This document shows positions 1,550-20,948 of a stretch of 26,395 nucleotides of DNA, piece after piece. How positions within the stretch are numbered: position 1 is the first letter of the stretch; each line of letters opens with the position of its first letter. The stretch is taken from IMG/VR virus record IMGVR_UViG_3300022198_004413, positions 1 to 26,395 of that record. The stretch is one strand, 5' to 3'. Made by a program: the position numbers and the translations under genes. The notes below the pieces were generated by a model that saw only the letters and a program-made list of their open reading frames with translations, did not search any database and had not been told where the DNA came from. This DNA is from a virus.

Positions 1550-2872
1550 TTAATTAAAAACATGAGTACATGTTAAACAATTTTTTTTATCCTCGCATAA
1601 ATTTAATTTTTTATAGCATACGGAATACCCATCAGCTGATTCCACTAAACCTGCAAAAAACTTATATGTTTTTTCTTTTATGTATTCAAGATCTTGTTCT
1701 GTCAATGTAGGAGAAGTGCCTAAAAAGAAAACATGTTTTAATACTTCATATCCATTTGGATAATCTTTAGGATCACCGAGGTGTTTGTAAGCAGGGTGCA
1801 AAAGTAAATTACCTGCAAAATAATTTCTAGTTTGGATTCCATTTGTTTCGTACCATTGTTGTAAGCTTTGTTTTAAATTTGGATTTTCAAATACAAGAGG
1901 AACACCAAACCAAGACGTTTCTGCATTTTCTTTTTCAGTTACAACACGAACTGGAGGTGCTGTAAGCATTTCCCATTTGTTAAAAATATCATAAATTGTT
2001 TTATAATTGTTTCTTCTTTTTTCATGAATCTCATTAAACTTTTCTAATTGAACTAAACCTACTGCTCCTTGAAGATCTAAAGGTTTCAGATTATAACCAA
2101 TCTGGCTGAATACATATTTATGATCAACAACTACATCATAATTTTCTAACCACTTATCAAATCGTTTACCGCAACTACCATTTGCTAACATGTTGCATTC
2201 TCCTACGCAATAACAATCTCTTCCCCACCAAGCAAACTGTCTGGCGAGTTTAATAATTTCAGGATTATTAGAAGAAACCATACCCCCTTCAAGAGTAGTA
2301 ATGTGATGCGCAGGATAAAAAGAACAAGATGCTGCAACAGCATGTTCAGTTAAATAGTCGCCTTTCCATTTTGATCCCAAAGAATCACAGTTGTCTGCAA
2401 TGTAATGAATGTTATGTTCATTGCAAATGCTAAGCAGCTTGTCCATATCGTATACGTTTCCAAGAACCGGACTGCTGAATACAGCTCTTGTTTTATTTGT
2501 AATAACTTTATTAATTTGATCTAAATCCCAATTAAGATCAACCTTATTAATGTCTACAAAAACAGGAACCAAATTATTTTGAATGATTGGATTAATTGTT
2601 GTTGGGAATCCAACAACACTAACAATAATTTCATCTCCATCTTTCCAATCGTAATACGCTTTTAACGCTGCAATCATTACAAGATTTGCAGAGCTTCCAC
2701 TATTAACCATCAAAGAATCTTTGAATCCAAATTTTTTAGAAAATTCTTTTTCAAATTTTGCAACCTTTGTCCCGGCAGGATACCAACGACCTTCTCTTAA
2801 TGTTTCAACCGCTGCTTCTATTTCATCTCCAGAAAAGTAGGGTCCGGCATACATAATTTTCGACTTAGACAT
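1550..2872 (-). CDS. rfbH-like: RfbH/E1-type CDP-4-keto-6-deoxyglucose 3-dehydrase-like enzyme
   Basis: A DegT/DnrJ/EryC1-fold enzyme whose details match the E1 (RfbH, AscC) subfamily that removes the C3 hydroxyl of CDP-4-keto-6-deoxyglucose on the way to 3,6-dideoxysugars. The PLP-binding region reads SFYPAHHIT, with His189 where transaminases have the Schiff-base Lys. That is the E1 hallmark for PMP-dependent dehydration. Cys162, Cys220, Cys222 and Cys234 reproduce the C-x57-C-x1-C spacing of the E1 [2Fe-2S] ligands, with the last gap widened to 11 residues by a short insert. GKRF, YDHKY-like and GYNLK segments also fit. Unusually, about 35 extra C-terminal residues carry four more cysteines (419, 426, 432, 435). 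The ATG has GAGG six bases upstream. No E3 reductase partner lies in the window. The subfamily is firm; the exact sugar is unknown. Confidence 0.88.
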   Translation of the reverse strand: MSKSKIMYAGPYFSGDEIEAAVETLREGRWYPAGTKVAKFEKEFSKKFGFKDSLMVNSGSSANLVMIAALKAYYDWKDGDEIIVSVVGFPTTINPIIQNNLVPVFVDINKVDLNWDLDQINKVITNKTRAVFSSPVLGNVYDMDKLLSICNEHNIHYIADNCDSLGSKWKGDYLTEHAVAASCSFYPAHHITTLEGGMVSSNNPEIIKLARQFAWWGRDCYCVGECNMLANGSCGKRFDKWLENYDVVVDHKYVFSQIGYNLKPLDLQGAVGLVQLEKFNEIHEKRRNNYKTIYDIFNKWEMLTAPPVRVVTEKENAETSWFGVPLVFENPNLKQSLQQWYETNGIQTRNYFAGNLLLHPAYKHLGDPKDYPNGYEVLKHVFFLGTSPTLTEQDLEYIKEKTYKFFAGLVESADGYSVCYKKLNLCEDKKNCLTCTHVFN

Positions 2873-3663
2873 AAATCCTCAATACCTTCTGTTATTTGAA
2901 TTAAAGGTTTGAAACCCAATGATTCAATTTTTTTGCAGTCTAAACGAAATTTAATAGCTTGTGAGTAATTAAAAGGAGGTTTTGTTGGAAATATATCACT
3001 ATCACTTTGCAAAAAATACTTAGCTTTTTCTAAACATTTTTGTAGTTGTGTAGCAATTCCTGTGCCGATATTGTAAATCTGATTATATTCTCCTTGTTTA
3101 GTTACTAAATCAATAGCCCTGCATGTGTCTAAGATATGAATAAAATCTCTTGATAAATTATGGTATACAATAATTCCTTCGTCTTTTTTAAGTCTTTCTA
3201 TAAGAAAATGTAATGAGTTGCGTTTAGACGATCCTTTATCTGGACCACCATAAACATTGCCAAGTCTTAAAATTCTCCAATTGATTCCGAATTCTTCGCA
3301 ATATTCTTTAACTAATTTTTCAGCACAATGTTTAGTGGCTGAATAAAAACCATTGGGATCACAGAGAGTATCTTCATTCGGATGCTCGGTGTGTGGGCCA
3401 TACACAAACCAGCTACTAACAAAATTAAAAACGTTGATACCGGCTTCTTTACAAGCATTGAGTCTTTGAGCTAAGACAATTAGATTAGTCTCTATATCTA
3501 AAAAAGTATCAGTCTTTAGATTTTGATTACTTGTTGTACTAATTAAATATAGAATCTCATTGGACTCAGGGTCTAGTTGGTTTTTTTCTATCGGTAGACA
3601 AGGAAACAAACCCTGATAGTAGGTGCCAATAATTCCACTGGCACCATAAACACTTAGATCCAT
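2818..3663 (-). CDS. NAD-dependent sugar epimerase/dehydratase (extended SDR)
   Basis: A 281-aa extended short-chain dehydrogenase/reductase. Starting at the ATG giving MDLSVYGASG, the Rossmann loop G-A-S-G-I-I-G is at residues 7-13, the catalytic Ser in the VSSWFVYG strand is at 83-84, and the YxxxK pair is Tyr107/Lys111 (YSATK). The LRLGNVYGG segment and the SRDFIHILD motif are typical of nucleotide-sugar epimerases and dehydratases. It overlaps the upstream glycosyltransferase by 10 bases and the dehydrase downstream by 55, so the three are co-translated. With the E1-type dehydrase next door, a 4-ketoreductase or 2-epimerase finishing a 3,6-dideoxyhexose is a reasonable inference; GDP- or UDP-sugar epimerases are alternatives. 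An in-frame start 12 codons earlier would add a poorly folding Arg/Pro tail, so I reject it. Confidence 0.87.
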   Translation of the reverse strand: MDLSVYGASGIIGTYYQGLFPCLPIEKNQLDPESNEILYLISTTSNQNLKTDTFLDIETNLIVLAQRLNACKEAGINVFNFVSSWFVYGPHTEHPNEDTLCDPNGFYSATKHCAEKLVKEYCEEFGINWRILRLGNVYGGPDKGSSKRNSLHFLIERLKKDEGIIVYHNLSRDFIHILDTCRAIDLVTKQGEYNQIYNIGTGIATQLQKCLEKAKYFLQSDSDIFPTKPPFNYSQAIKFRLDCKKIESLGFKPLIQITEGIEDLCLSRKLCMPDPTFLEMK

Positions 3664-4415
3664 CGGTGACGTTCGCTGCGAGTAGGGTCGTACAACCAAT
3701 AGTCACAAGTTAAATCCAAATTAAATGGCGTTTCAAATTGCTCGTGACCAGGAAGACCTCCCCATTTCTCTAGATAATACTTTCTATTCTGTTCAAATGT
3801 GTATTGGTTTTTAATTTTAAATTTTTCATCTCTTTTTAACGTGCTGCTAACTGCGTGTGTATATTCAAGTGGAAAATATTCCCATTCCATATTTGCTAAT
3901 TGCATTCGATAACGGTGATCATTGTCTTCGTAGTAAGCAGGAAAAAAATTTTCATCCATTAAACCTACGTTTTGGACTAAGCCAGGGCCAAAAACCATAG
4001 CTGAATAACCATTTTGAGTTTCATCACACAAAATTCCAGTGAATGGTTTTTCTAAACGTTTTGCTAACTTTTTTAACTCTCCTTTTTTTAAATGCCAATC
4101 AACCGAAAAGATACACCAGTAAGGACAATCTGTATTCTGTTTAATGATTTGATTAACACTTCCTGAAAATCCTTGATTCAATCTGTTCTTAATCACGCAA
4201 ACTTCTTTAATGTTTGTGTTTCTTGCAACAGGCAAGTTTGTAGAAAAAAGTTCCTGTAGTTCTTTTAAAACATTGGTAACACTAGGATCTTTTCCCATTG
4301 AGTTATCAATAATAAAATAACGATTAACTGGATAGTCAATTGAATGATAATGATTTAACAAATCTGTTCCACCATTAACAATCATTGTTCCAATAATTTC
4401 AATGGGTTTTGTCAT
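3654..4415 (-). CDS. GT-A family glycosyltransferase (GT2-like)
   Basis: A 253-aa protein with GT2 landmarks: a beta-strand N terminus (IEIIGTMIVNGG), an FIIDNS strand, NQGFSGSVNQ (the N-x-GF-a-x-x-N motif after the nucleotide-binding strand), FSVDWHL where the metal-binding acidic motif usually lies, a central GPGLVQNVGLMDENFF acceptor-loop pattern and YYEDNDHRYRM, the ED-x-D catalytic-base motif. It has no membrane anchor, so it probably acts in the host cytoplasm on a nucleotide sugar, plausibly the product of the neighbouring dehydrase and epimerase. The DXD is reduced to one Asp (V-D-W), which some active GT2 enzymes tolerate. The start overlaps the end of the 32-aa gene by 17 bases. Confidence 0.85.
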   Translation of the reverse strand: MTKPIEIIGTMIVNGGTDLLNHYHSIDYPVNRYFIIDNSMGKDPSVTNVLKELQELFSTNLPVARNTNIKEVCVIKNRLNQGFSGSVNQIIKQNTDCPYWCIFSVDWHLKKGELKKLAKRLEKPFTGILCDETQNGYSAMVFGPGLVQNVGLMDENFFPAYYEDNDHRYRMQLANMEWEYFPLEYTHAVSSTLKRDEKFKIKNQYTFEQNRKYYLEKWGGLPGHEQFETPFNLDLTCDYWLYDPTRSERHRWI

Positions 4416-4497
4416 TGCGTTTTAAAAAAGATAAAAGAAAACTACTAATACAATACCAAGTTGCTTGAACTTTGTTTTGAAATTCCTTGAAAGTCAT
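4399..4497 (-). CDS. Tiny membrane-associated peptide, 32 aa
   Basis: The ATG at 4497 overlaps the TGA of the 31-aa gene just upstream (ATGA junction), and the stop at 4399 lies 17 bases inside the glycosyltransferase gene. The peptide begins with a polar helix (MTFKEFQNKVQATWYC) followed by a hydrophobic stretch ISSFLLSFL and a basic end KRND. It looks like an amphipathic or single-span membrane peptide. I cannot name a family. Two coupled overlaps in a row make it unlikely to be chance, although peptides this short are hard to prove from sequence alone. A lysis, membrane-protein or host-takeover role is possible. Confidence 0.55.
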   Translation of the reverse strand: MTFKEFQNKVQATWYCISSFLLSFLKRNDKTH

Positions 4498-4589
4498 TGC
4501 TTTAAAAAATGTAAAGATAAATCAATTGTAACGATTAGTAAAATTGATCCCAAAATGGCAGCAATCGTGTTGACAAAACCTGTCATCAT
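4494..4589 (-). CDS. Tiny transmembrane peptide, 31 aa
   Basis: This is the first gene behind the late-type promoter at 4608-4615, with an AGGA about nine bases upstream of tandem ATG codons (4589 and 4586). The product is nearly all one membrane span: after MMTGF come about 20 hydrophobic residues (VNTIAAILGSILLIVTIDL), then a short SLHFLKQ end. Its TGA overlaps the ATG of the next 32-aa gene. Function unknown. The single span and small size fit a phage membrane peptide such as an antiholin, pinholin or inner-membrane modulator, but no family signature is visible. Confidence 0.6.
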   Translation of the reverse strand: MMTGFVNTIAAILGSILLIVTIDLSLHFLKQ

Positions 4590-4607
4590 TTTAAAAATCC
4601 TGTAACA

Positions 4608-4615
4608 TATTTATA
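4608..4615 (-). promoter_or_regulatory. T4-late-type promoter box (TATAAATA)
   Basis: Read on the minus strand this is an exact TATAAATA, the -10-only box used by T4-type late sigma (gp55-like) systems. It lies about 19 bases before the first ATG of the minus-strand cassette and in the short gap between two divergent transcription units, the expected place for a promoter. No -35 element is needed for this class. The match is exact; use by a gp55-like factor is inferred, since no sigma gene lies in the window. Confidence 0.6.
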
Positions 4616-4617
4616 AT
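4612..4617 (+). promoter_or_regulatory. Possible -10 box for the plus-strand unit
   Basis: TATAAT on the plus strand, overlapping the minus-strand late box. It lies 12 bases before the nuclease start codon, so a transcript would begin almost at the ATG with a very short or absent leader. That would explain why no ribosome binding site is seen there. I see no convincing -35 hexamer at 16-18 bases. Chance occurrence in AT-rich DNA is a real alternative. Confidence 0.3.
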
Positions 4618-4629
4618 ATACAAACAGTG

Positions 4630-5430
4630 ATGCGTAAAATTCAAGAATTAAATAGATCTGCTGCTCGCATTACATTAAATGGTAAGCGTCACTACACCAC
4701 TCCGCTTCCAACAGGGCCTGCTCCATCAGTCACTACAATTATTTCTGAAACGGCTTCAGAAGCAAACAAAAGAAAATTAGAAATGTGGTCTAAGGCCAAC
4801 CCTGGCCAAAAAGAATTAGCTGCTCACAGAGGCACTTGTATTCACTATGGAATGGAACAATATCTTAAAGGTAATAAGAATCCAGAAATTGAAACGGAGT
4901 ACCAGGAATTTTGGCAGGGTATGCCGGCTGTACTTGACCAGTTTCAAGAAGTCTTGTGGGCTGAAACCCCAGTTCTGGAAAAGTTCAATTTCACTATCGG
5001 TGGTGATGACGTTGCTCGTGTATGGGGCAGTGATGACGAGGGACGTTCGTGGGCTGGCGCTCCTGATATTATTGCAGTTGCTAACAATAAACTTACTCTT
5101 GCTGACCTCAAAACATCAGTAAAACCTTACTCAAGACGTTGGCCAAAAGATGTAGAAAAAGGTTCACAAGAATGGCGTGACTTATTGGGTGGTCACATGA
5201 AGTTTAAAAAAACATGTAAACAATTGGCAGCATACGATATCGCCATCCAACAAACGCTAGGGATCACAGTAGATCAGGCTGCAATTCTTGTTTCAACTCC
5301 ACTAAGAACACAAATATTTAAAATCTCAAGACGATTCTTAGATATCTTGCACAAAGATTGGCTCAAGATTGTTGAAGAATATTACAAACAAATTGAAAAC
5401 TGTAATGTTTACGACGCGGATCTAATTTAA
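4630..5430 (+). CDS. PD-(D/E)XK nuclease, RecB/Cas4-like exonuclease
   Basis: A 266-aa nuclease of the PD-(D/E)XK superfamily. In order: HRGTCIH at residues 66-72 (the conserved His of the RecB-like group), an upstream acidic residue near WAETPVL (about 112), GAPDII with Asp146, LTLADLKTS giving Asp159 and Lys161, and CKQLAAYDIAI with Gln198 (the Q-x-x-x-Y motif). These are the metal-binding and catalytic positions of RecB-family single-strand exonucleases. No iron-sulfur Cys cluster is present, so it is not a true Cas4. I start at the ATG at 4630 rather than the GTG at 4627; neither has a clear ribosome binding site. Being upstream of the primase-helicase suggests work in replication or recombination. 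Confidence 0.85.
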   Translation: MRKIQELNRSAARITLNGKRHYTTPLPTGPAPSVTTIISETASEANKRKLEMWSKANPGQKELAAHRGTCIHYGMEQYLKGNKNPEIETEYQEFWQGMPAVLDQFQEVLWAETPVLEKFNFTIGGDDVARVWGSDDEGRSWAGAPDIIAVANNKLTLADLKTSVKPYSRRWPKDVEKGSQEWRDLLGGHMKFKKTCKQLAAYDIAIQQTLGITVDQAAILVSTPLRTQIFKISRRFLDILHKDWLKIVEEYYKQIENCNVYDADLI

Positions 5431-5805: not shown

Positions 5806-8407
5806 CCCTGGTGAAATTTGCGTTGATTATATTCCTCTTGATTGGCCTTTAACTCCATTAGGCGCTAGAAAAGATCCTTATGTAACTGGCTGGCAAAACA
5901 AACCTTTTACAAAAGATGAAATTGAAGCCGAGCTTTTAACCGGTCGTTGCAAAGCAATCGGACTTATCTCTGGTCCTGTTTATAACAAACCTTATGGTTT
6001 AATTTGGGTAGACATTGATGGTCCTAGTGTTTATCAGTTAGTTAAAGAGTTGTCAAAAGAAGATGATTTTGATAAAGCATTACCAGAGACTTTAACTATT
6101 TGCAGCGGAAAATTAGGTCGTGAACGTAAGCTTTATAGGATTTCAAAAAAATTACAAGAACATTTAATCAGAAACAAATATAACTGGCATGGCGCTGAAA
6201 ACAAAGAAAAACTAGAAGTTCTCTGGGCAAGACATCAAGGTGTTTTAATGGGTCTTCATCCAGAAACTGAAGGTTATTTTACAGCTGAAAACATGGGGTT
6301 TGAGCTAGTTGATTCTTTGCCAGAATTTCCTCAATGGTTATTAAATTTAATTATCGAAAAAAATAAAAAACAAGGTATTCCTCCAAAGGTAACAACAAGA
6401 ATTGTTGGCCCTGGCTTTGCAATAAATAGTGTTACAACTCCTGAAAAAGATATTTCAGATGCTTTAAATGCAATGTGGGCAACTGATTCTGCAGCTGCTG
6501 ACGATTATGATTCTTGGATTTTATTTGGACAAGTTCTTCATAGTTTAGACGATTCATTACTAGAGGCTTGGGATGAATGGTCTAAGCAATCGTCTAAATA
6601 TAAAGAAGGCGAGTGCCATAAGCGTTGGCTTAGTTTTTGCAAAGATGGTGGACGAACAATAGGTTCATTGATTCATACGGCAAAGGAATATGGCTATAAT
6701 CCTTCTGGTCCAGGTAGTCAAAATTACAAAGCAATGAATGTTGATGACGAAACTTTATCGGCAATTGCTTTGGATCCAGTAACAAATCTATTAACTGAAC
6801 TAGAAAAAGATATTCAAAAACAAACCAATAATCCATACAAATCTAATTTAGTTCAAAAAAACAAGAAAAATTTTAAAGAACAAAAGCCAAGAAATTCTTC
6901 TTCTGATGTCGTAACAGATGTCATGATTCAAATGTATAAAGGAAATCTTTTGTTTAGTCAACAAGAGAATTCTTTTTATCTTTATGAGTATCGCAGCAAA
7001 GGTTTATGGTCACGTTTATTTGAATCAGAAATTAAAGGAGATATTAAAAATAAATTTGAATTAATTAAACAGGATGTTTTACCTAATGGGTACAGCATGA
7101 ACATGATTAACGATGTCTTAGAACAATTAAAAATTAGTTTGATATTCGATGATTGGTATGATCAGAAAGATCTTTTGCTTTTTACCAATGGCATTTTAAA
7201 TGTCGAAACAAGAGAGCTAATTGAATTTAAAAAAGATTTATACATGACTCAACAGCTTCCTTATGATTATGATCCTTATATAAATTGTGAACCTATTATC
7301 CAATGGTTAAAAGATACACAAGACAATAGTTGGGAACGCACTCAGGTTTTGCGTGCTTGGTTGCGTGCTGTTCTTTTAAGTCATTCTGAAATTCAAAAAT
7401 TTGTTGAAATTGTTGGCCCAGGTAAATCTGGTAAATCAACCTATGCAAATTTAGCTCATGCTTTGGTTGGAGACGAAAACGCCATGATCTCTAGCCTTGA
7501 GCACTTAGAAAAAAATCGTTTTGAAACAGCTAATCTTTACAAAAAGAAATTGCTTTTGTTTAATGATGTTGAAAGATATGGCGGCTCAGTTTCTATCTTA
7601 AAAGCTATTACTGGTCGTGATTTAATTCGCAATGAAAGAAAATTTCAAAGCAACTCACAAAAGCCTTTTAAATTTAATGGCCTTGTAATTATTACGGCTA
7701 ATGAACCTATTCAAACAACTGATCCCACTTCAGGTCTTGCACGTCGAAGACTAACTATTCCTTTTGATAAACCCTTTAAAGGTGTTTCATCAGAACAAAA
7801 AACTCTTATTGACATGGATGATAAAGGTCGTCCATTTGGTGAATTTGCTCCTTTGTTGCCTGGTTTAGTTAATTGGTTGCTTGATATGAGCGCAGATGAA
7901 ATGCGCGAATATCTTATGGAAACAAACAAAAAAGTTTCTTTCTTTGCTAAGCATCATCGTGAACAAATCCTTAAGTCGAATCAAATTATGGATTGGATGA
8001 GCCATTGTTTAGTTTTTGATACCAGTGTTTCTACTGTTGTTGGTTTAGCTAAGTTTGCACCTGGTGGTACTGATACTCTTTACAAGAATTCTGATAAATG
8101 GTTATATGCTAGTTATTGCGAATTTTCTCGCGGTAGTAATACAAACATACTTGGCCGCAGCAGATTTGAATCTTTAGTTTTAGATATCTGTGCTCATCAA
8201 TTAGATTTAAATGTTTATAAAATATCAACATCTCGTGGAATGAGAATTGCTAATATTGCTACCAGGAAATCCGATCTTCCTAAATATAAAAACTATCCTT
8301 CTGTTGTTGAACTTGGTTTAAATAAAGACAAATGGACTAATATATATGGAGAATCTCTTTTAAATAAAAGCGATCAAAATATAGAAGTACCCGAGGAAGA
8401 ATTTTGA
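5777..8407 (+). CDS. P4-type primase-polymerase / SF3 helicase
   Basis: An 876-aa replication protein. Residues 18-190 look like a primase-polymerase (AEP) domain: WPLTPLGARKDPY near the N terminus and GLIWVDIDG with the metal-binding Asp79/Asp81. Residues 225-305 carry a PriCT-2-like helical domain (repeated Trp, KYKEGECHKRW, TIGSLIHTA). After a low-complexity linker (about 340-375) comes a D5-type segment and the SF3 helicase core: Walker A GPGKSGKS at 547-554, Walker B LLLFNDVE at 592-598 and sensor LVIITANE at 636-643. Such proteins both prime and unwind at phage and plasmid origins. The stop overlaps the speD start (TTGA). This architecture replaces the separate gp41/gp61 pair of T4-like cyanophages. 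No ribosome binding site is evident. Confidence 0.93.
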   Translation: MTNQQPRSLNPGEICVDYIPLDWPLTPLGARKDPYVTGWQNKPFTKDEIEAELLTGRCKAIGLISGPVYNKPYGLIWVDIDGPSVYQLVKELSKEDDFDKALPETLTICSGKLGRERKLYRISKKLQEHLIRNKYNWHGAENKEKLEVLWARHQGVLMGLHPETEGYFTAENMGFELVDSLPEFPQWLLNLIIEKNKKQGIPPKVTTRIVGPGFAINSVTTPEKDISDALNAMWATDSAAADDYDSWILFGQVLHSLDDSLLEAWDEWSKQSSKYKEGECHKRWLSFCKDGGRTIGSLIHTAKEYGYNPSGPGSQNYKAMNVDDETLSAIALDPVTNLLTELEKDIQKQTNNPYKSNLVQKNKKNFKEQKPRNSSSDVVTDVMIQMYKGNLLFSQQENSFYLYEYRSKGLWSRLFESEIKGDIKNKFELIKQDVLPNGYSMNMINDVLEQLKISLIFDDWYDQKDLLLFTNGILNVETRELIEFKKDLYMTQQLPYDYDPYINCEPIIQWLKDTQDNSWERTQVLRAWLRAVLLSHSEIQKFVEIVGPGKSGKSTYANLAHALVGDENAMISSLEHLEKNRFETANLYKKKLLLFNDVERYGGSVSILKAITGRDLIRNERKFQSNSQKPFKFNGLVIITANEPIQTTDPTSGLARRRLTIPFDKPFKGVSSEQKTLIDMDDKGRPFGEFAPLLPGLVNWLLDMSADEMREYLMETNKKVSFFAKHHREQILKSNQIMDWMSHCLVFDTSVSTVVGLAKFAPGGTDTLYKNSDKWLYASYCEFSRGSNTNILGRSRFESLVLDICAHQLDLNVYKISTSRGMRIANIATRKSDLPKYKNYPSVVELGLNKDKWTNIYGESLLNKSDQNIEVPEEEF

Positions 8408-8775
8408 ACAACGGCAAGCATCTTATTTTAGACATTCATGGCTGTGACCCTGAAATTTTAAATGACTATGATCGTCTTGAGTGCATTATGTACGAAGCAT
8501 TGCATTTAATAGGCGCAAAACTTTTAAGGTTGATTGGGGAAAAATTTGATCCTCAAGGTGTAACCTTATTAGCTTTGCTTGCTGAGTCTCATTGCTCTAT
8601 TCATACTTGGCCTGAACACAATTTTGCAGCTATTGATTTGTATACTTGTGGTAAAGATTTTGATCCAGTTGCTATCAAAGATATGTTTAAACAAAAATTA
8701 AATTCAACCACAGATGAAGAAAAAGATATGGGTTTATTTATTGAACGTCCTTTTGAAATTTCAGGGCTTCTTTAA
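8404..8775 (+). CDS. speD: S-adenosylmethionine decarboxylase proenzyme
   Basis: A 123-aa prokaryotic small-class AdoMet decarboxylase, making decarboxylated AdoMet for spermidine and related polyamines. The self-cleavage site is LAESHCSIHTWPE: Glu61-Ser62 is the serinolysis bond, with Ser62 becoming the pyruvoyl cofactor. His67 and Cys82 (LYTCG) match the processing His and the proton-donor Cys at the spacing seen in bacterial enzymes. Length is normal and complete. The start is TTG, overlapping the TGA of the primase gene, so translation is probably coupled; no ATG would keep the conserved N terminus (HLILDIHGC). speD is a known cyanophage auxiliary metabolic gene, thought to adjust host polyamines during infection. 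Confidence 0.95.
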   Translation: MNNGKHLILDIHGCDPEILNDYDRLECIMYEALHLIGAKLLRLIGEKFDPQGVTLLALLAESHCSIHTWPEHNFAAIDLYTCGKDFDPVAIKDMFKQKLNSTTDEEKDMGLFIERPFEISGLL

Positions 8776-15310: not shown

Positions 15311-18300
15311 TTAAGTGCCTTGCAACTGAACAATTGCTTGTTCAGCTATTTCTAAACGATTAATCAATTCTTTAACAGCTTGTACAAGAATCGGATACGT
15401 TTTAAAAGGAGCTGCTTCTAGTTTTTCAGGATTTGAATCATCAACTAAATTTGTATATTCAATAGTATTTAATTCAGTTTCTATTGTTTGTAACTCTTGA
15501 GCAATAAAACCATAATCTTTTTTGCCTTCAAAGCTACCATCTCTACGCGCCCAGTCAAACTTAACAGGTCTTAATCGTTTAATAAAATTAACACCATGCT
15601 CAAGATCTGTAATGTTTGTTTTATCTCTTTCATCAGAAAGACTACTAATACTTGTTACATTACATCTTAATGATGTAATAGATGAATTACCTAATGTAAT
15701 TTGATTACTAACAATAAGTGCCGATGCCGCTGCTTGGTATCCTATTACTGTATTATTAGAACCAGTTCCTATTCCATCCGCTTCTGTTCCAATAAGTGTA
15801 TTATATGCTCCATAATCTAAATCATTACCTGCTAGGTTGCCTACTACAGTATTACCAGTTCCAGAGAAGGAAAAAGCAACACAGTTAGCACCAATATATG
15901 TGCAACCACTAGCATAACGAGTAGATACTGCTGCTTGATGACCAAGAATTACATTGCCTGATGCCTCATATAAAAATGGAACAGCTCCATAACCCATTAC
16001 AGAATTCTTCTGGTTAAAAGAAGCAAATGCACCTGATGCAATACCATGTCCAACATAAGTATTGTATTGACCAGTTTGATGACCTGAAGCTGTTTGATTT
16101 CCTATAAATACATTTAGCCTGCCGACATTGTTAGGTTTTCCGCCAGCTTTATAGCCAATAGCAATTATACCAGAAACACTATTTGCAAAGCCAATAGCAT
16201 CTTTACCTATAATGACAGAATCTTTAACATCAAATCCAGTAGTAGCTGCTTTCTCACCAATAACAACACTATTATAAGTTTCGCCCTGTAAATACTTACC
16301 ACATTGATAACCTATCCAAACATTACCAGAATTTTTGGTTTGACTATATGCATTATATGCAGCAGCTTGATAACCTATAGCAACAGTATTTGTATAGTAT
16401 TCACCAGATTCAGCAACATTGCTACCAATGAAAACATTATAATCAGCAGTTCCTGCTTTGCGTAAACCTCTGTGTCCTATAACTGTATTGTTAGTATGAC
16501 TTGTTATAAATCCAGAACATGCCTCTGATCCTATATAAATACCATTTGCAATACCTGCATTTAAGTTACAAGCTTTAGATCCAATAACAATAGCTTTGTT
16601 AGTGGTTGAGGAATAACCAAATAAGTTTGCATCTTTACCTGCTTGATAACCAATAAGAACGCAATCATCTGATGTTCTATAAGTATTATTACCGCCTTTG
16701 CCACCTTCAAAACCAATAATAACAGCACGCTGTGGTTCATATAATTCTGTTGCTGCTTCGCAACCTATAATGACATTTTTTCCTTCATTGCTGGCAAATC
16801 CAGTTGTGCCTGAACATACATTTTGGCCGATTAATACACCAGACAAAATTGTATTTCGGCCAAAAGCATTAGCTATTTTACCAGCTGCTGTGCCAATAAC
16901 AACAGCACCACTTTGAGTAAGAGTGTCTTGATTTGCACCATATTGTGTTATACCTGTTTCAGTAATACCACTTAAAGTAGAGCCTGCAGAAATAGTAGTA
17001 AAACTTAATTTACCTGCACCGTCAGTCATTAACACATCACCAGATGTGCTATCACCACTAGGTAATCTAAATGTAGTATTACTACCATTTAATGTTGTTG
17101 GTGCTCTAAATGCAACATAGTTTGCACTGTTCCCTTGGTAAAATCTAACTTCAGTACTATCACCATCTGCATTATCTTTAAATTGTAATAAACTAGACAA
17201 TCCTGTAATAGTCGTAGTTTTTTTAAGGGTGCTGCCTCCATTTGAAGTTAAATTAGTTCCAATAGTTGCAATATTAAAATTACCAGTCTGACCTGTAATA
17301 GTAGTACCTGAAATAGTAGTGCCTTTAGCTAAAACAAAATTACCTGTTCCAATGTTGCCTGTATCGCCAGTAATAGTTGTTCCACTTAAACCAACTGCAT
17401 TTAAGTAATTTGTCGCATTACTGTAATATAAATTACTAGTTGAATAAGCAAGTCCACTTCCTGTTGCATTTGCTTTTAAAACAACATAATTAGTTCCTTC
17501 TTCTAAATTAAGTGTTGAATTAATACCTGTTGAATAAACCTGTTCATCACCAGCAGATGCCCAACTTAAAGTTCCAGCTGCATCACTAACTAATGCATAA
17601 CCAGAAACAGTTGCATCTGCATCAGGCAACGTCCAAGTTACATTGCTAGTGATACCACTTGCAGCTTTAAGTGCAACATAATTTGTATTATTTGCTTCAT
17701 AAAAACGAAGCGCTCTAGTGCCACTACCTTCCTCTAATGGATAACCTTTTAAATCAGTTGTTGCATTACCTGTATGTGTAACATTACCAGTAACTAATAA
17801 TGAACCACCAGTTACAGAAGTTGCAACTAAACTATTGCCAGAGATAGCACCACCAGAAATACTAGTAACGCCGATAATATCTGCACCTGTAATGCTTGTA
17901 AATCTACCAGTATCGCCAGTAATAACGCTACCGCTAATTGTACCTGTAACGGTTAAACTACCACCCGTAATTAAATTACCAGAAATACTGGTTGTACCTC
18001 TAATGTCAACACCAGAAATGGTTTGACCAGAAATTAAAGTTGTTCCATAAATATTTGCACCAGTAATGTTTGTAAAGTCTCCGGTACCTCCTTGGACAGT
18101 AATACCAGAAATGACACCGCCTGTAGAATAAACACCTGAACCAAAAACACCTGAACCAGTTACAAAAATATCTTCAACAAAATATGCATCACCAGTAACA
18201 GTTAAACGTTCTTTTGTAATGCCAGTTACAAAAGTAGCTGTATTGGCATTTAATACATCAAAATTACCAGTCTGACCTGTAATAGTAGTACCAGAAATAG

Positions 18301-18619
18301 TACCAGTAGACGTATGACCACCAACGTTTAATACATCAAAATTACCAGTCTGACCAGTAATTGTTGTTCCTGATAATAAAGTTAAAACATTAACTTCAAC
18401 ACCCGTAATATAGGTAAAATCACCAGTAGAAACCGCTAACCCACTAAAATTACCTGAAGGAGCAACAACAGTTTGAAACTCTCCAGTTACACCTGAAATA
18501 GTTCCTGAAATAGTAAGATTGCTTGCGCTTGCATCAAGCAAACCAGAAACATTTAAAGTAACTTCACTGGCGCCACTAGAATAAATAATTTGATCAACTT
18601 TTACTTTACCGAATGCCAT
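15311..18619 (-). CDS. Giant repeat tail fibre with S74 self-cleaving chaperone
   Basis: A 1102-aa virion fibre. The first part (about residues 20-600) is made of Thr/Gly-rich repeats such as SGTTITGQTGNF, a beta-solenoid pattern. The middle to about residue 980 has trimeric-adhesin-like units (NTVIGYQAA, NVFIGSNVA). Residues 995-1102 are an intramolecular chaperone autoprotease (Peptidase_S74), which folds the trimer and cuts itself off: SDERDK gives the Ser995/Lys1000 dyad, followed by LRPVKFDW and DYGFIAQE. Expected role: host receptor binding. Repeats of 29 and 33 bp inside the gene allow in-frame length change. A TATAAATA late box lies 38 bases upstream. The start codon has only a weak CAGAG ribosome binding site. 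Confidence 0.93.
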   Translation of the reverse strand: MAFGKVKVDQIIYSSGASEVTLNVSGLLDASASNLTISGTISGVTGEFQTVVAPSGNFSGLAVSTGDFTYITGVEVNVLTLLSGTTITGQTGNFDVLNVGGHTSTGTISGTTITGQTGNFDVLNANTATFVTGITKERLTVTGDAYFVEDIFVTGSGVFGSGVYSTGGVISGITVQGGTGDFTNITGANIYGTTLISGQTISGVDIRGTTSISGNLITGGSLTVTGTISGSVITGDTGRFTSITGADIIGVTSISGGAISGNSLVATSVTGGSLLVTGNVTHTGNATTDLKGYPLEEGSGTRALRFYEANNTNYVALKAASGITSNVTWTLPDADATVSGYALVSDAAGTLSWASAGDEQVYSTGINSTLNLEEGTNYVVLKANATGSGLAYSTSNLYYSNATNYLNAVGLSGTTITGDTGNIGTGNFVLAKGTTISGTTITGQTGNFNIATIGTNLTSNGGSTLKKTTTITGLSSLLQFKDNADGDSTEVRFYQGNSANYVAFRAPTTLNGSNTTFRLPSGDSTSGDVLMTDGAGKLSFTTISAGSTLSGITETGITQYGANQDTLTQSGAVVIGTAAGKIANAFGRNTILSGVLIGQNVCSGTTGFASNEGKNVIIGCEAATELYEPQRAVIIGFEGGKGGNNTYRTSDDCVLIGYQAGKDANLFGYSSTTNKAIVIGSKACNLNAGIANGIYIGSEACSGFITSHTNNTVIGHRGLRKAGTADYNVFIGSNVAESGEYYTNTVAIGYQAAAYNAYSQTKNSGNVWIGYQCGKYLQGETYNSVVIGEKAATTGFDVKDSVIIGKDAIGFANSVSGIIAIGYKAGGKPNNVGRLNVFIGNQTASGHQTGQYNTYVGHGIASGAFASFNQKNSVMGYGAVPFLYEASGNVILGHQAAVSTRYASGCTYIGANCVAFSFSGTGNTVVGNLAGNDLDYGAYNTLIGTEADGIGTGSNNTVIGYQAAASALIVSNQITLGNSSITSLRCNVTSISSLSDERDKTNITDLEHGVNFIKRLRPVKFDWARRDGSFEGKKDYGFIAQELQTIETELNTIEYTNLVDDSNPEKLEAAPFKTYPILVQAVKELINRLEIAEQAIVQLQGT
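17276..17308. repeat. 33-bp exact repeat, copy 1 (inside fibre gene)
   Basis: Identical to 18260-18292, about 984 bases away in the same coding gene and the same reading frame; it encodes the TTITGQTGNF repeat. A candidate site for homologous recombination that would delete or duplicate fibre repeats. Confidence 0.75.
18249..18355. repeat. 29-bp tandem repeat and 33-bp copy 2 (inside fibre gene)
   Basis: A 29-bp string is exactly repeated at 18249-18277 and 18327-18355, 78 bases (26 codons, in frame) apart. The first copy overlaps 18260-18292, the partner of the 33-bp repeat at 17276-17308. Recombination here would change fibre length by whole repeat units without breaking the frame. Confidence 0.75.
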
Positions 18620-18656: not shown

Positions 18657-18664
18657 TATTTATA
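18657..18664 (-). promoter_or_regulatory. T4-late-type promoter box for the S74 fibre gene
   Basis: A second exact minus-strand TATAAATA. It straddles the stop codon of the upstream fibre gene and lies 38 bases before the S74 fibre start. Two exact boxes both ahead of minus-strand genes fit a late, structural programme. Confidence 0.6.
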
Positions 18665-20948
18665 ATGTCAACCAAGTTGAACCGGTAGGTACTGTAACAG
18701 TAACTCCGGTTGCTATTTCTAAAGGTGTAATAGATAAAGCGTTGTAACCACTTTCAACAGTTTGGTCAATATCATACACAGCTTTTGTTTCAAGCATTGC
18801 ACCTCTAACATTCCTATCTGTTCTTAATCCAGAGGCGCCTGAAATATAACCACTGGAAAGAATATTACCTGTTGATGTGGTGACAAAGTTAGCAACAGTA
18901 AAGTTACCCGTTATAGCGGTAACTGTTACTGATTCAATTAAAGTGCCACCAGTAATATAATCTCCAGAAATTCGATCTGTAAAAATGCCAGTAGAGCCTG
19001 AAATAAAATGAATGCTGCCTGTGCTACCAGTAATAGTGGTGCCGCTTAATAAATCAGTAACAACCCTAGTAGTACCTGTAATTCTGCTTACCGTTAAATC
19101 TTGACCAACAATATTTTCGCCAGATAGGGTATCTGTAAAAGTACCCGATGTACCACTTACAGTTGTAAAATTACCTGTTTCAACATTAAGAGTTGAAAAG
19201 CCAATCGTGTTACCAGTTAAATTATCAAATAAACCTGTTGTACCTGTAATAGTGGTACCTTTTACAGTTGTTCCAGTAATTGTGGTGCCTGTAATTGAAC
19301 CTGCTGTAATAAATGCAAAGTTACCAGTAGTACCAGTAATTGTGGTCCCTGTAATAGAAGTAGCTGTAAAACTACTAATAGTTGCTACTGTAAACTGTCC
19401 AGTTTGACCTGTAATAGTGACGCCAGAAATTTTTGTTGTGGCGTTTAATCCTGAAACAGTAACAATTTGAAAGTTACCAGTTGTTCCAGTAATTGTGGTT
19501 CCGGTTATATTTGTACTTGTAAGGTTTGAAAATTTACCTGTTTCACCTGTAATAGTTACACCAGTAATACTTGTTCCTGTTAATGATGTAAATTTACCTG
19601 TAACTCCGGTAATTGTGGTGCCAGTAATATTATTTGCATTAATATTTTCACCTGTTATTAAAGTCGAACCAGTAATAGTATTTGCAGTGATATCACCGAA
19701 AGTACCTGTAATACCTGAAATGGTAACACCACTTACGCGACCTGAAACGTTTATATTTTGTTGGAAAAATCCCGTGCCTGTAAGCGTTAAATTCCCACCA
19801 ATTTCAACATTACCAGTTGTTGAAATACTAGGAATATTTACTTGATCTGTAAAAGTACCTGTTAAAGCTGTTAAAGAAGTAAATTGTCCAGTAATACCAG
19901 TAATTGTTTGACCACTTACTCTAGTGGTAAAAACTCCTGAAACTGCTTGCTGTGTAGAAAATAAACCTGTATTGCCAGTAATTGTTTTTCCACTTAATTT
20001 TGTGGTAAATATTCCTGTTTCACCTGTAATTTCATTAAAATTTCCTGTTGAACCTTTAATTGTTAATCCAGATATTTGCGTAGAACCTGTAATAAATTGA
20101 CTTGTTAAAGAAACAAAATTACCAGTTGTTCCACTAAAATTAATAAATTTACCTGTCTGCCCAGTAATACTGGTGCCAGTTAAAGAAATAAACGTTCCAG
20201 TAGTTCCTGTAATTGTTGCACCTTTTATTGTTATTCCTGTAATTGTGTTACCTGTAATATTGGTTCCACTAATATTTGAAAACTTACCTGTTGTTCCAGT
20301 AATTGTTGTTCCAGTAATATTTGTTGCTGTAAAGTTTGTAAACTTACCGGTTTCACCTGTAATAGTTGTACCAGATAACGTACCAGTTGTGTTAATTTGT
20401 GCGCCAGTAATGATGGCGCCGCTAACAGTATTGAATAAACCACTTGAACCAATGAATTTTTGACCTGTAATTTCTGTGAATTTACCTGTAGATCCTGTTA
20501 CGGTACCACCTGTAACAACATTAAAACCTGCAGATGTTCCAGTAATTGTGGTACAGATAATTTGTGTGATATTTCCAGTTGTAATATTAGCGTTGGTACC
20601 TCTTAAATCAGAACCAGTAATTGTATTGCCACTCAGTAAATTTCTAAACTCTCCAGTGCCGGTGCAAATTAATTGGTTAAATGTTCCAGTGCCTGATATA
20701 TTAACGTTTAACGGCGCAAAAGTTCCACCAATAGAAAGATCATTATCTACAGTTAAACTACCAGCAATCGTGCCGCCTGTTAACTGTAGATAATAAACAT
20801 TATAATATTCCCGAGAAGATAGAAAAGTAAATTTTCTATTTTTTAACCCAGGATCTACTTCGGAAACATCAACAACAGTATATAAATCGCCATCTGCAAT
20901 ATCTGCACCGGCAATTGCTGATAATTCCGAAATCTTTCTATCTGCCAC
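18660..20948 (-). CDS. T/G-rich repeat fibre protein, 762 aa
   Basis: A structural fibre. The N terminus (MADRKISELSAIAGADIADG) resembles virion-attachment segments of phage fibres, and the C terminus (about residues 710-762: GYNALSITPLEIATGVTVTVPTGSTW) is a terminal strand-turn pattern common in phage fibre tips. In between, some 550 residues repeat a 5-residue-based unit, T-I-T-G-T/x-T-G-x-F, predicted to be a beta-solenoid. It carries no S74 domain, so it may depend on the neighbour for maturation or be a separate fibre part. Many Ser/Thr residues make it a plausible target of the adjacent glycosyltransferases. A TACAAATA near-late box lies about 30 bases upstream of the start. Confidence 0.9.
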   Translation of the reverse strand: MADRKISELSAIAGADIADGDLYTVVDVSEVDPGLKNRKFTFLSSREYYNVYYLQLTGGTIAGSLTVDNDLSIGGTFAPLNVNISGTGTFNQLICTGTGEFRNLLSGNTITGSDLRGTNANITTGNITQIICTTITGTSAGFNVVTGGTVTGSTGKFTEITGQKFIGSSGLFNTVSGAIITGAQINTTGTLSGTTITGETGKFTNFTATNITGTTITGTTGKFSNISGTNITGNTITGITIKGATITGTTGTFISLTGTSITGQTGKFINFSGTTGNFVSLTSQFITGSTQISGLTIKGSTGNFNEITGETGIFTTKLSGKTITGNTGLFSTQQAVSGVFTTRVSGQTITGITGQFTSLTALTGTFTDQVNIPSISTTGNVEIGGNLTLTGTGFFQQNINVSGRVSGVTISGITGTFGDITANTITGSTLITGENINANNITGTTITGVTGKFTSLTGTSITGVTITGETGKFSNLTSTNITGTTITGTTGNFQIVTVSGLNATTKISGVTITGQTGQFTVATISSFTATSITGTTITGTTGNFAFITAGSITGTTITGTTVKGTTITGTTGLFDNLTGNTIGFSTLNVETGNFTTVSGTSGTFTDTLSGENIVGQDLTVSRITGTTRVVTDLLSGTTITGSTGSIHFISGSTGIFTDRISGDYITGGTLIESVTVTAITGNFTVANFVTTSTGNILSSGYISGASGLRTDRNVRGAMLETKAVYDIDQTVESGYNALSITPLEIATGVTVTVPTGSTWLTL
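19200..20720. repeat. Degenerate DNA repeats encoding fibre solenoid
   Basis: The stretch is dominated by short imperfect repeats (plus-strand CCAGTAATTGTGGT-type strings and close variants) that encode T-I-T-G-T units on the minus strand. The open plus-strand frames here are Pro/Val-rich artefacts. Such DNA tends to recombine. Confidence 0.7.

Follow-up and report, generated by a model that had tools for sequence, protein, structure and literature searches.

A predicted phage-encoded E1-like nucleotide-sugar 3-dehydratase in an exchangeable glyco-cassette of S-EIV1-like cyanophages

Described relatives of the phage enzyme

The closest characterized counterpart of the phage enzyme analysed here is E1 of Yersinia pseudotuberculosis (CDP-6-deoxy-L-threo-D-glycero-4-hexulose 3-dehydrase; AscC/DdhC/RfbH; structures 3BCX/3BB8). 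Two further 3-dehydratases bear on the comparison. SpnQ (dTDP-4-keto-2,6-dideoxyglucose 3-dehydratase) is also an Fe-S/PMP enzyme, and it runs on ferredoxin/ferredoxin reductase or flavodoxin/flavodoxin reductase pairs in place of the E3 reductase (PMC8987622); we liken it to the phage enzyme by description rather than by sequence, and its substrate and pathway are its own. ColD (GDP-4-keto-6-deoxymannose 3-dehydratase; 2GMS/3B8X) has the same fold and a His in place of the Lys, but it lacks the cluster Cys residues, follows a hydrolytic, glutamate-recycled mechanism and is not the enzyme considered here. The E1 and ColD mechanisms as applied in this work are described in PMC8987622.

Viral rfbH/ascC/ddhC genes are already present, under their KEGG names, on lists of auxiliary metabolic genes from viromes (PMC10653327; PMC11295528), and the portions of those reports available to us contain no clade, Cys-spacing or cassette analysis. 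Our literature search found no papers on phage E1 enzymology. Among named phages, the T4-like cyanophages S-B05, S-B43, S-H68, RB11-B and RN05-S resemble the present case in having an E1 that is 62% identical and lies within a large sugar cluster. However, that cluster comprises about 19 genes including RmlB/RmlC, whereas the lineage studied here has a glycosyltransferase (GT2), an SDR and E1 only. In one T4-like cyanophage (L002, 3495-6240), the E1 gene was found in a run of sugar genes together with a small cytidylyltransferase-like gene, RmlB, RmlC and an SDR.

The DNA that we analysed (the window) is the 26,395-nucleotide viral record IMGVR_UViG_3300022198_004413. Because its primase is 59% identical to that of Synechococcus phage S-EIV1, a virus of freshwater cyanobacteria, over 98% of the length, the window is, by this match, an S-EIV1-like cyanophage fragment. 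The GenBank record of S-EIV1 lists no cassette of the kind described below next to the matching genes. Between the primase and a group 1 glycosyltransferase the window contains SpeD (S-adenosylmethionine decarboxylase; 8404-8775; 112.6 bits, above cut-off), which is retained by nearly all relatives. Two long, highly repetitive tail-fibre-like proteins with TITG-type repeats are encoded at 15311-18619 and 18660-20948, and the C-terminus of the former is a Peptidase_S74 intramolecular chaperone.

Family placement of the E1-like gene

The E1-like gene (P0001) occupies positions 1550-2872 on the minus strand. These are the coordinates given in the initial annotation. They hold a single open reading frame of 440 amino acids with an ATG start; the plus-strand frame across the same interval is riddled with stops. 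The annotation had named the product an E1/RfbH-type iron-sulfur sugar dehydrase, and profile searches, alignment to solved structures, a phylogenetic tree and structural comparison were concordant with this placement. The protein matched Pfam PF01041 (DegT/DnrJ/EryC1/StrS) with 241 bits. Its top NCBIfam model was RfbH at 365.8 bits, while any aminotransferase model scored at most 145 bits. The closest solved structures were the E1 dehydrases 3bcx/3bb8 (E=3e-73), and the score against E1 was 250 bits versus 144-149 bits against ColD. An AlphaFold2 model was obtained with a mean pLDDT of 87.8 and a pTM of 0.87, and a Foldseek search with this model ranked E1 first (E=3e-38, TM 0.80), which answers the structural comparison that the annotation had proposed. 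Residues 221-240 of the model are moderately confident (pLDDT 73-76).

The residues expected of an E1 were also found. The protein carries both H189 and H190 in the motif PAHHIT, which is identical in Yersinia E1 (3bcx); in the H220K mutant (3bb8) the motif reads PAKHIT, with the K in the H189 column. The proposal that His189 replaces the PLP lysine thus holds, as this residue aligns with E1 His220 and is invariant among the 67 viral E1 sequences that we aligned. Cys residues are located at positions 150, 162, 183, 220, 222, 226, 234, 419, 426, 432 and 435. In a full-length alignment to 3bcx, C162, C220, C222 and C234 correspond to the four Cys of Yersinia E1 in the same C-x57-C-x1-C order, but a 4-residue insertion precedes the last one (x11 versus x7), and the two proteins are only about one-third identical. 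C226, which the annotation did not mention, pairs with another Cys of Yersinia E1. As this position is occupied by Q, A, S, D or E among viral E1s, C226 is not likely to be a cluster ligand.

Comparison with neighbouring families sharpened the assignment. The cluster Cys residues set the protein apart from the ColD type, and His189, with no Schiff-base lysine, sets it apart from Lys-dependent aminotransferases. RfbH proper did not fit either. The score of 365.8 bits is below the 423-bit cut-off of the RfbH equivalog NF011936 (three cellular E1s scored 655-731 bits), the spacing is not x7, and linked RfbF or RfbG above cut-off, or an E3-type reductase, was not found in the virus records searched, the window record being a fragment. 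On these grounds the product is a predicted phage-encoded E1-like [2Fe-2S]/PMP nucleotide-sugar 3-dehydratase, which we do not file as RfbH proper.

The pattern C-x57-C-x1-C-x11-C was invariant together with H189 in 67/67 viral E1s in one alignment, a degree of conservation far above chance. The His and the four Cys were also invariant in the 3 cellular E1s of that alignment, whereas ColD-like and Lys-type homologues lacked C220, C222 and C234. The last gap was x7 in 26/26 cellular E1s checked (from Desulfobacterota-type genomes, one archaeon, one other bacterium and three plasmids). Thus the annotation was correct that the Cys residues follow the E1 spacing with a last gap of 11, but this gap is not a peculiarity of one protein; in the aligned sequences it is a fixed mark of the whole viral clade. 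In a tree built with the insertion removed, viral E1s (29 rows, 100/100, stem 1.54), bacterial E1s (26 rows, 100/99) and all other homologues were separate, and the viral clade was the sister of the cellular E1s, apart from all else. The viral loci of this comparison were gathered by similarity to P0001 itself, and the cellular sampling was limited to one genome-contig scan, 297 and 398 genomes from two phyla, and plasmids. No cellular member of the viral clade was found in the genome-contig scan or in the 398 Pseudomonadota genomes (identity at most 40%). The x11 clade appears undescribed in the papers that we searched.

Selection on the gene was assessed against its homologue in L006 (81% identical). 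We obtained a dN/dS of 0.117/1.117 (about 0.1), and differences in the E1 body fell at codon positions 1, 2 and 3 in a ratio of 61:36:159, a third-position excess. The gene is therefore under strong purifying selection, which shows that the E1-like enzyme is, as judged from codon substitutions, in use by the phage.

The cassette slot and the C-terminal tail

The E1-like gene is the last of three minus-strand genes that overlap head to tail. The first, at 3654-4415, encodes a GT-A/GT2-type glycosyltransferase-like protein of 253 amino acids (below cut-off in Pfam, with E=0.0004 to Glycos_transf_2; E=7e-30 to the PHROG 'galactosyl transferase'), for which no match to solved structures was found. 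It overlaps by 10 nt the start of the second gene (2818-3663), which encodes an SDR-superfamily NAD-dependent epimerase/dehydratase-like protein with the motifs GASGIIG and YSATK and in turn overlaps the start of the E1-like gene by 55 nt. The SDR is 43% identical to an SDR of a T4-like cyanophage sugar cluster. It is a probable 4-ketoreductase/epimerase working after E1; all of its profile matches were weak and mixed, and no exact sugar product can be assigned from them. Overlap and gene order were kept in 14 other contigs. GT2, SDR and E1 form an overlapping operon that acts like one allele at a slot for exchangeable glyco-cassettes. The slot is flanked by g77, a small conserved gene at 1330-1563 on the minus strand (probable start MSLSTQ near 1539), and by a conserved gene labelled EXK (putative nuclease) at 4627-5430 on the plus strand.

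The slot itself (1563-4627 in the window) was hypervariable; no fewer than four different gene sets occupied it among the loci compared (L106, L108, L082, L090, L127 and others). E1, SDR and GT2 were present at 17 loci, corresponding to 14 distinct contigs besides the window. The commonest alternative, found in 18 contigs, consisted of a ColD-like dehydratase, a GDP-mannose 4,6-dehydratase (448.9 bits against a cut-off of 415) and another glycosyltransferase. A lone methyltransferase-like gene occupied the slot in 8 cases, and in 3 it contained HAD, nucleotidyltransferase and glycosyltransferase-like genes, which were named by sequence motifs and not by family search. Mapped onto the backbone phylogeny, built from three flanking proteins, cassette state required at least 8 changes, versus a minimum of 3. 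For example, the cassettes of L095 (E1) and L090 (methyltransferase-like) differ although the two backbones are almost the same. From these data we conclude that cassettes are swapped as units between related phages.

The ColD-like proteins of the slot have His for Lys and no cluster Cys except C162, so that two chemically different routes of 3-deoxygenation, E1 and ColD-like, would alternate at one locus. Such a slot for E1 and ColD cassettes appears undescribed in the papers searched. In L108 (1289-3530) and 17 sister contigs, the ColD-like 3-dehydratase has as its neighbour, encoded on the other strand, a GDP-mannose 4,6-dehydratase of full length; together these make up most of a colitose-type pathway, with ColC not identified in the slot. 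A small CxxCxxCC YkgJ-like protein, putatively metal-chelating, is encoded at the cassette edge in L086 (4552-4914), L074 (9332-9745) and L115 (3983-4363). We considered it as an Fe-S partner of E1 and rejected it, as its neighbour is an E1 cassette in two of these phages (L086, L074) and a ColD cassette in the third (L115).

The slot boundary also bears on the C-terminus of the window enzyme. The initial annotation had described an extra set of four Cys, C-x6-C-x5-C-x2-C at residues 419-435, and suggested that it may bind a second metal or dock a redox partner. The pattern is present as described. However, only C419, which sits immediately before it, lies outside a read-through tail made up of residues 420-440 and the stop (1550-1615, minus strand), which is spacer/leader DNA preceding the next gene. 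Twelve other aligned E1s of the same lineage end before position 422 or no more than about 5 residues from it, and the tail is likewise missing from every other sequence in the 67-member viral set. The four extra Cys occur in no other viral E1, save for one Cys of L074 that aligns with C419. In L006 a stop follows residue 422 and is succeeded by spacer. A shifted frame there matches three of the tail Cys and the His behind them, the one observation that speaks for a metal site, but this frame is interrupted. Differences between the window and L006 within the tail fell at codon positions 1, 2 and 3 in a ratio of 7:6:3, opposite to coding constraint. L082 has a methyltransferase-like gene instead of E1, and its homology to the window resumes at residue 420 of the E1 frame, within the untranslated leader of g77, which contains stops. 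The model is at its least confident over residues 421-440 (pLDDT 53 and 42). The broken frame in L006, the leader match in L082, the codon-position pattern and the low pLDDT led us to reject a second metal site or docking tail, which we regard as hardly credible. Because the homology to the E1-less L082 begins inside the g77 leader, the tail is, on these comparisons, cassette-boundary spacer captured through loss of the E1 stop and not a conserved metal site. The Cys-rich C-terminus would thus be neutral read-through, and recognizing it as such keeps later work from being misled into a search for another metal site.

Proposed chemistry, electron supply and alternative readings

The best explanation of these observations, to which we assign a probability of roughly 0.85, is a viral E1-type 3-dehydratase that belongs to an exchangeable GT2-SDR-E1 glyco-cassette and is fed by host substrates, with a neutral tail. 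By homology to E1, PMP would form a Schiff base with a host-derived NDP-4-keto-6-deoxyhexose, His189 would take the proton and the C3-OH would leave. A [2Fe-2S] cluster on C162, C220, C222 and C234 would then deliver two electrons, in two one-electron transfers, to give NDP-4-keto-3,6-dideoxyhexose. Reduction or epimerisation of this product at C4 is the probable task of the SDR, whose gene lies immediately upstream, and GT2 probably moves the finished deoxysugar onto a glycan of the virion or infected-cell surface.

As the annotation had noted, no E3 reductase is present in the window, and the search that it proposed was extended to 51 virus records, nearly all of them E1-carrying. No PF00175-type (E3-like) reductase was found in any of the 51, while controls in cellular genomes were positive; the records, like the window, include fragments, which makes this absence weak evidence, though one record of the same lineage, at 84.6 kb, exceeds the 79 kb of the S-EIV1 genome. 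Fer2 ferredoxins were found in 5/51 records, all as frames of 100-117 amino acids. The frame in PV261925 lies about 12 kb from E1 and is not a gene of the E1 operon. Because no E3 accompanies E1, electrons probably come from ferredoxin of the host, or in some T4-like cyanophages possibly of the phage. The related SpnQ provides a published precedent for ferredoxin as a substitute for E3.

The choice of nucleotide is the point on which a variant of the best explanation deserves most weight. Neither RfbG (51 records) nor RfbF (33 viral records) was found above cut-off, so that the phage would depend for its substrates on the host or on dTDP-type enzymes like those of the T4-like cyanophage clusters. 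E1-like chemistry on a dTDP- or other NDP-sugar, SpnQ-like and with ferredoxin, would accommodate these absences, the occurrence of RmlB and RmlC above cut-off in a T4-like cyanophage E1 cluster, and a Streptomyces RfbH homologue that adjoins RfbA/B/C. Conversely, CDP-4-keto-6-deoxyglucose could be supplied by the host, since Synechococcus elongatus and Bacillus subtilis match CDP-glucose 4,6-dehydratase (E at most 1e-60; one over cut-off), and alphaproteobacterial relatives are located in rfbFGH clusters. We consider the dTDP variant quite possible, at somewhat less than even odds.

The other readings fare much worse. Labels in PHROG 3139 ('aminotransferase') and several GenBank records ('DegT/DnrJ/EryC1/StrS aminotransferase') would make the protein a 4-aminotransferase whose lysine was lost or has shifted. 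It does have the DegT fold, E1 H220K transaminates non-catalytically, and SpnQ transaminates without its reductase (PMC8987622). Nevertheless, H189 and the four cluster Cys do not vary across the viral set, and the viral clade groups with E1 and not with the Lys enzymes, a grouping that the annotation had said would refute its reading; we consider an aminotransferase very improbable. It is unlikely, to a lesser degree, that the target of the cassette is phage DNA, with base glycosylation as a defence against restriction, and not a surface glycan. Cassette exchange would suit anti-restriction diversification too, but none of the window genes examined was identified as encoding an enzyme that hydroxylates or hydroxymethylates bases, and the further glycosyltransferases and large tail-fibre-like genes favour surface glycans.

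For the E1-type reading that we prefer, annotation is a first consequence. Viral E1-like dehydratases in PHROG 3139 and in GenBank PV261925, MK799832 and MN018232 are labelled 'aminotransferase' or 'hypothetical protein'. As the lysine is replaced and the cluster Cys are present, these labels are probably wrong; they are usual for phage E1-like genes and mask an iron-sulfur redox enzyme of sugar metabolism. The viral clade, with its 67 sequences, long stem and x11 gap, points to an enzyme variant that may function without a dedicated reductase. More tentatively still than the dTDP variant, and with doubt prevailing, the clade might be a distinct E3-free E1 subfamily that draws on host photosynthetic or phage ferredoxin to make light-coupled 3,6-dideoxysugars, its glycan function being switched with the Fe-S-free ColD/GDP-mannose route by cassette exchange. 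For the question of how widespread cyanophages diversify their glycans, the slot with its interchangeable E1, ColD/GDP-mannose 4,6-dehydratase, methyltransferase-like and nucleotidyltransferase sets amounts to a natural experiment.
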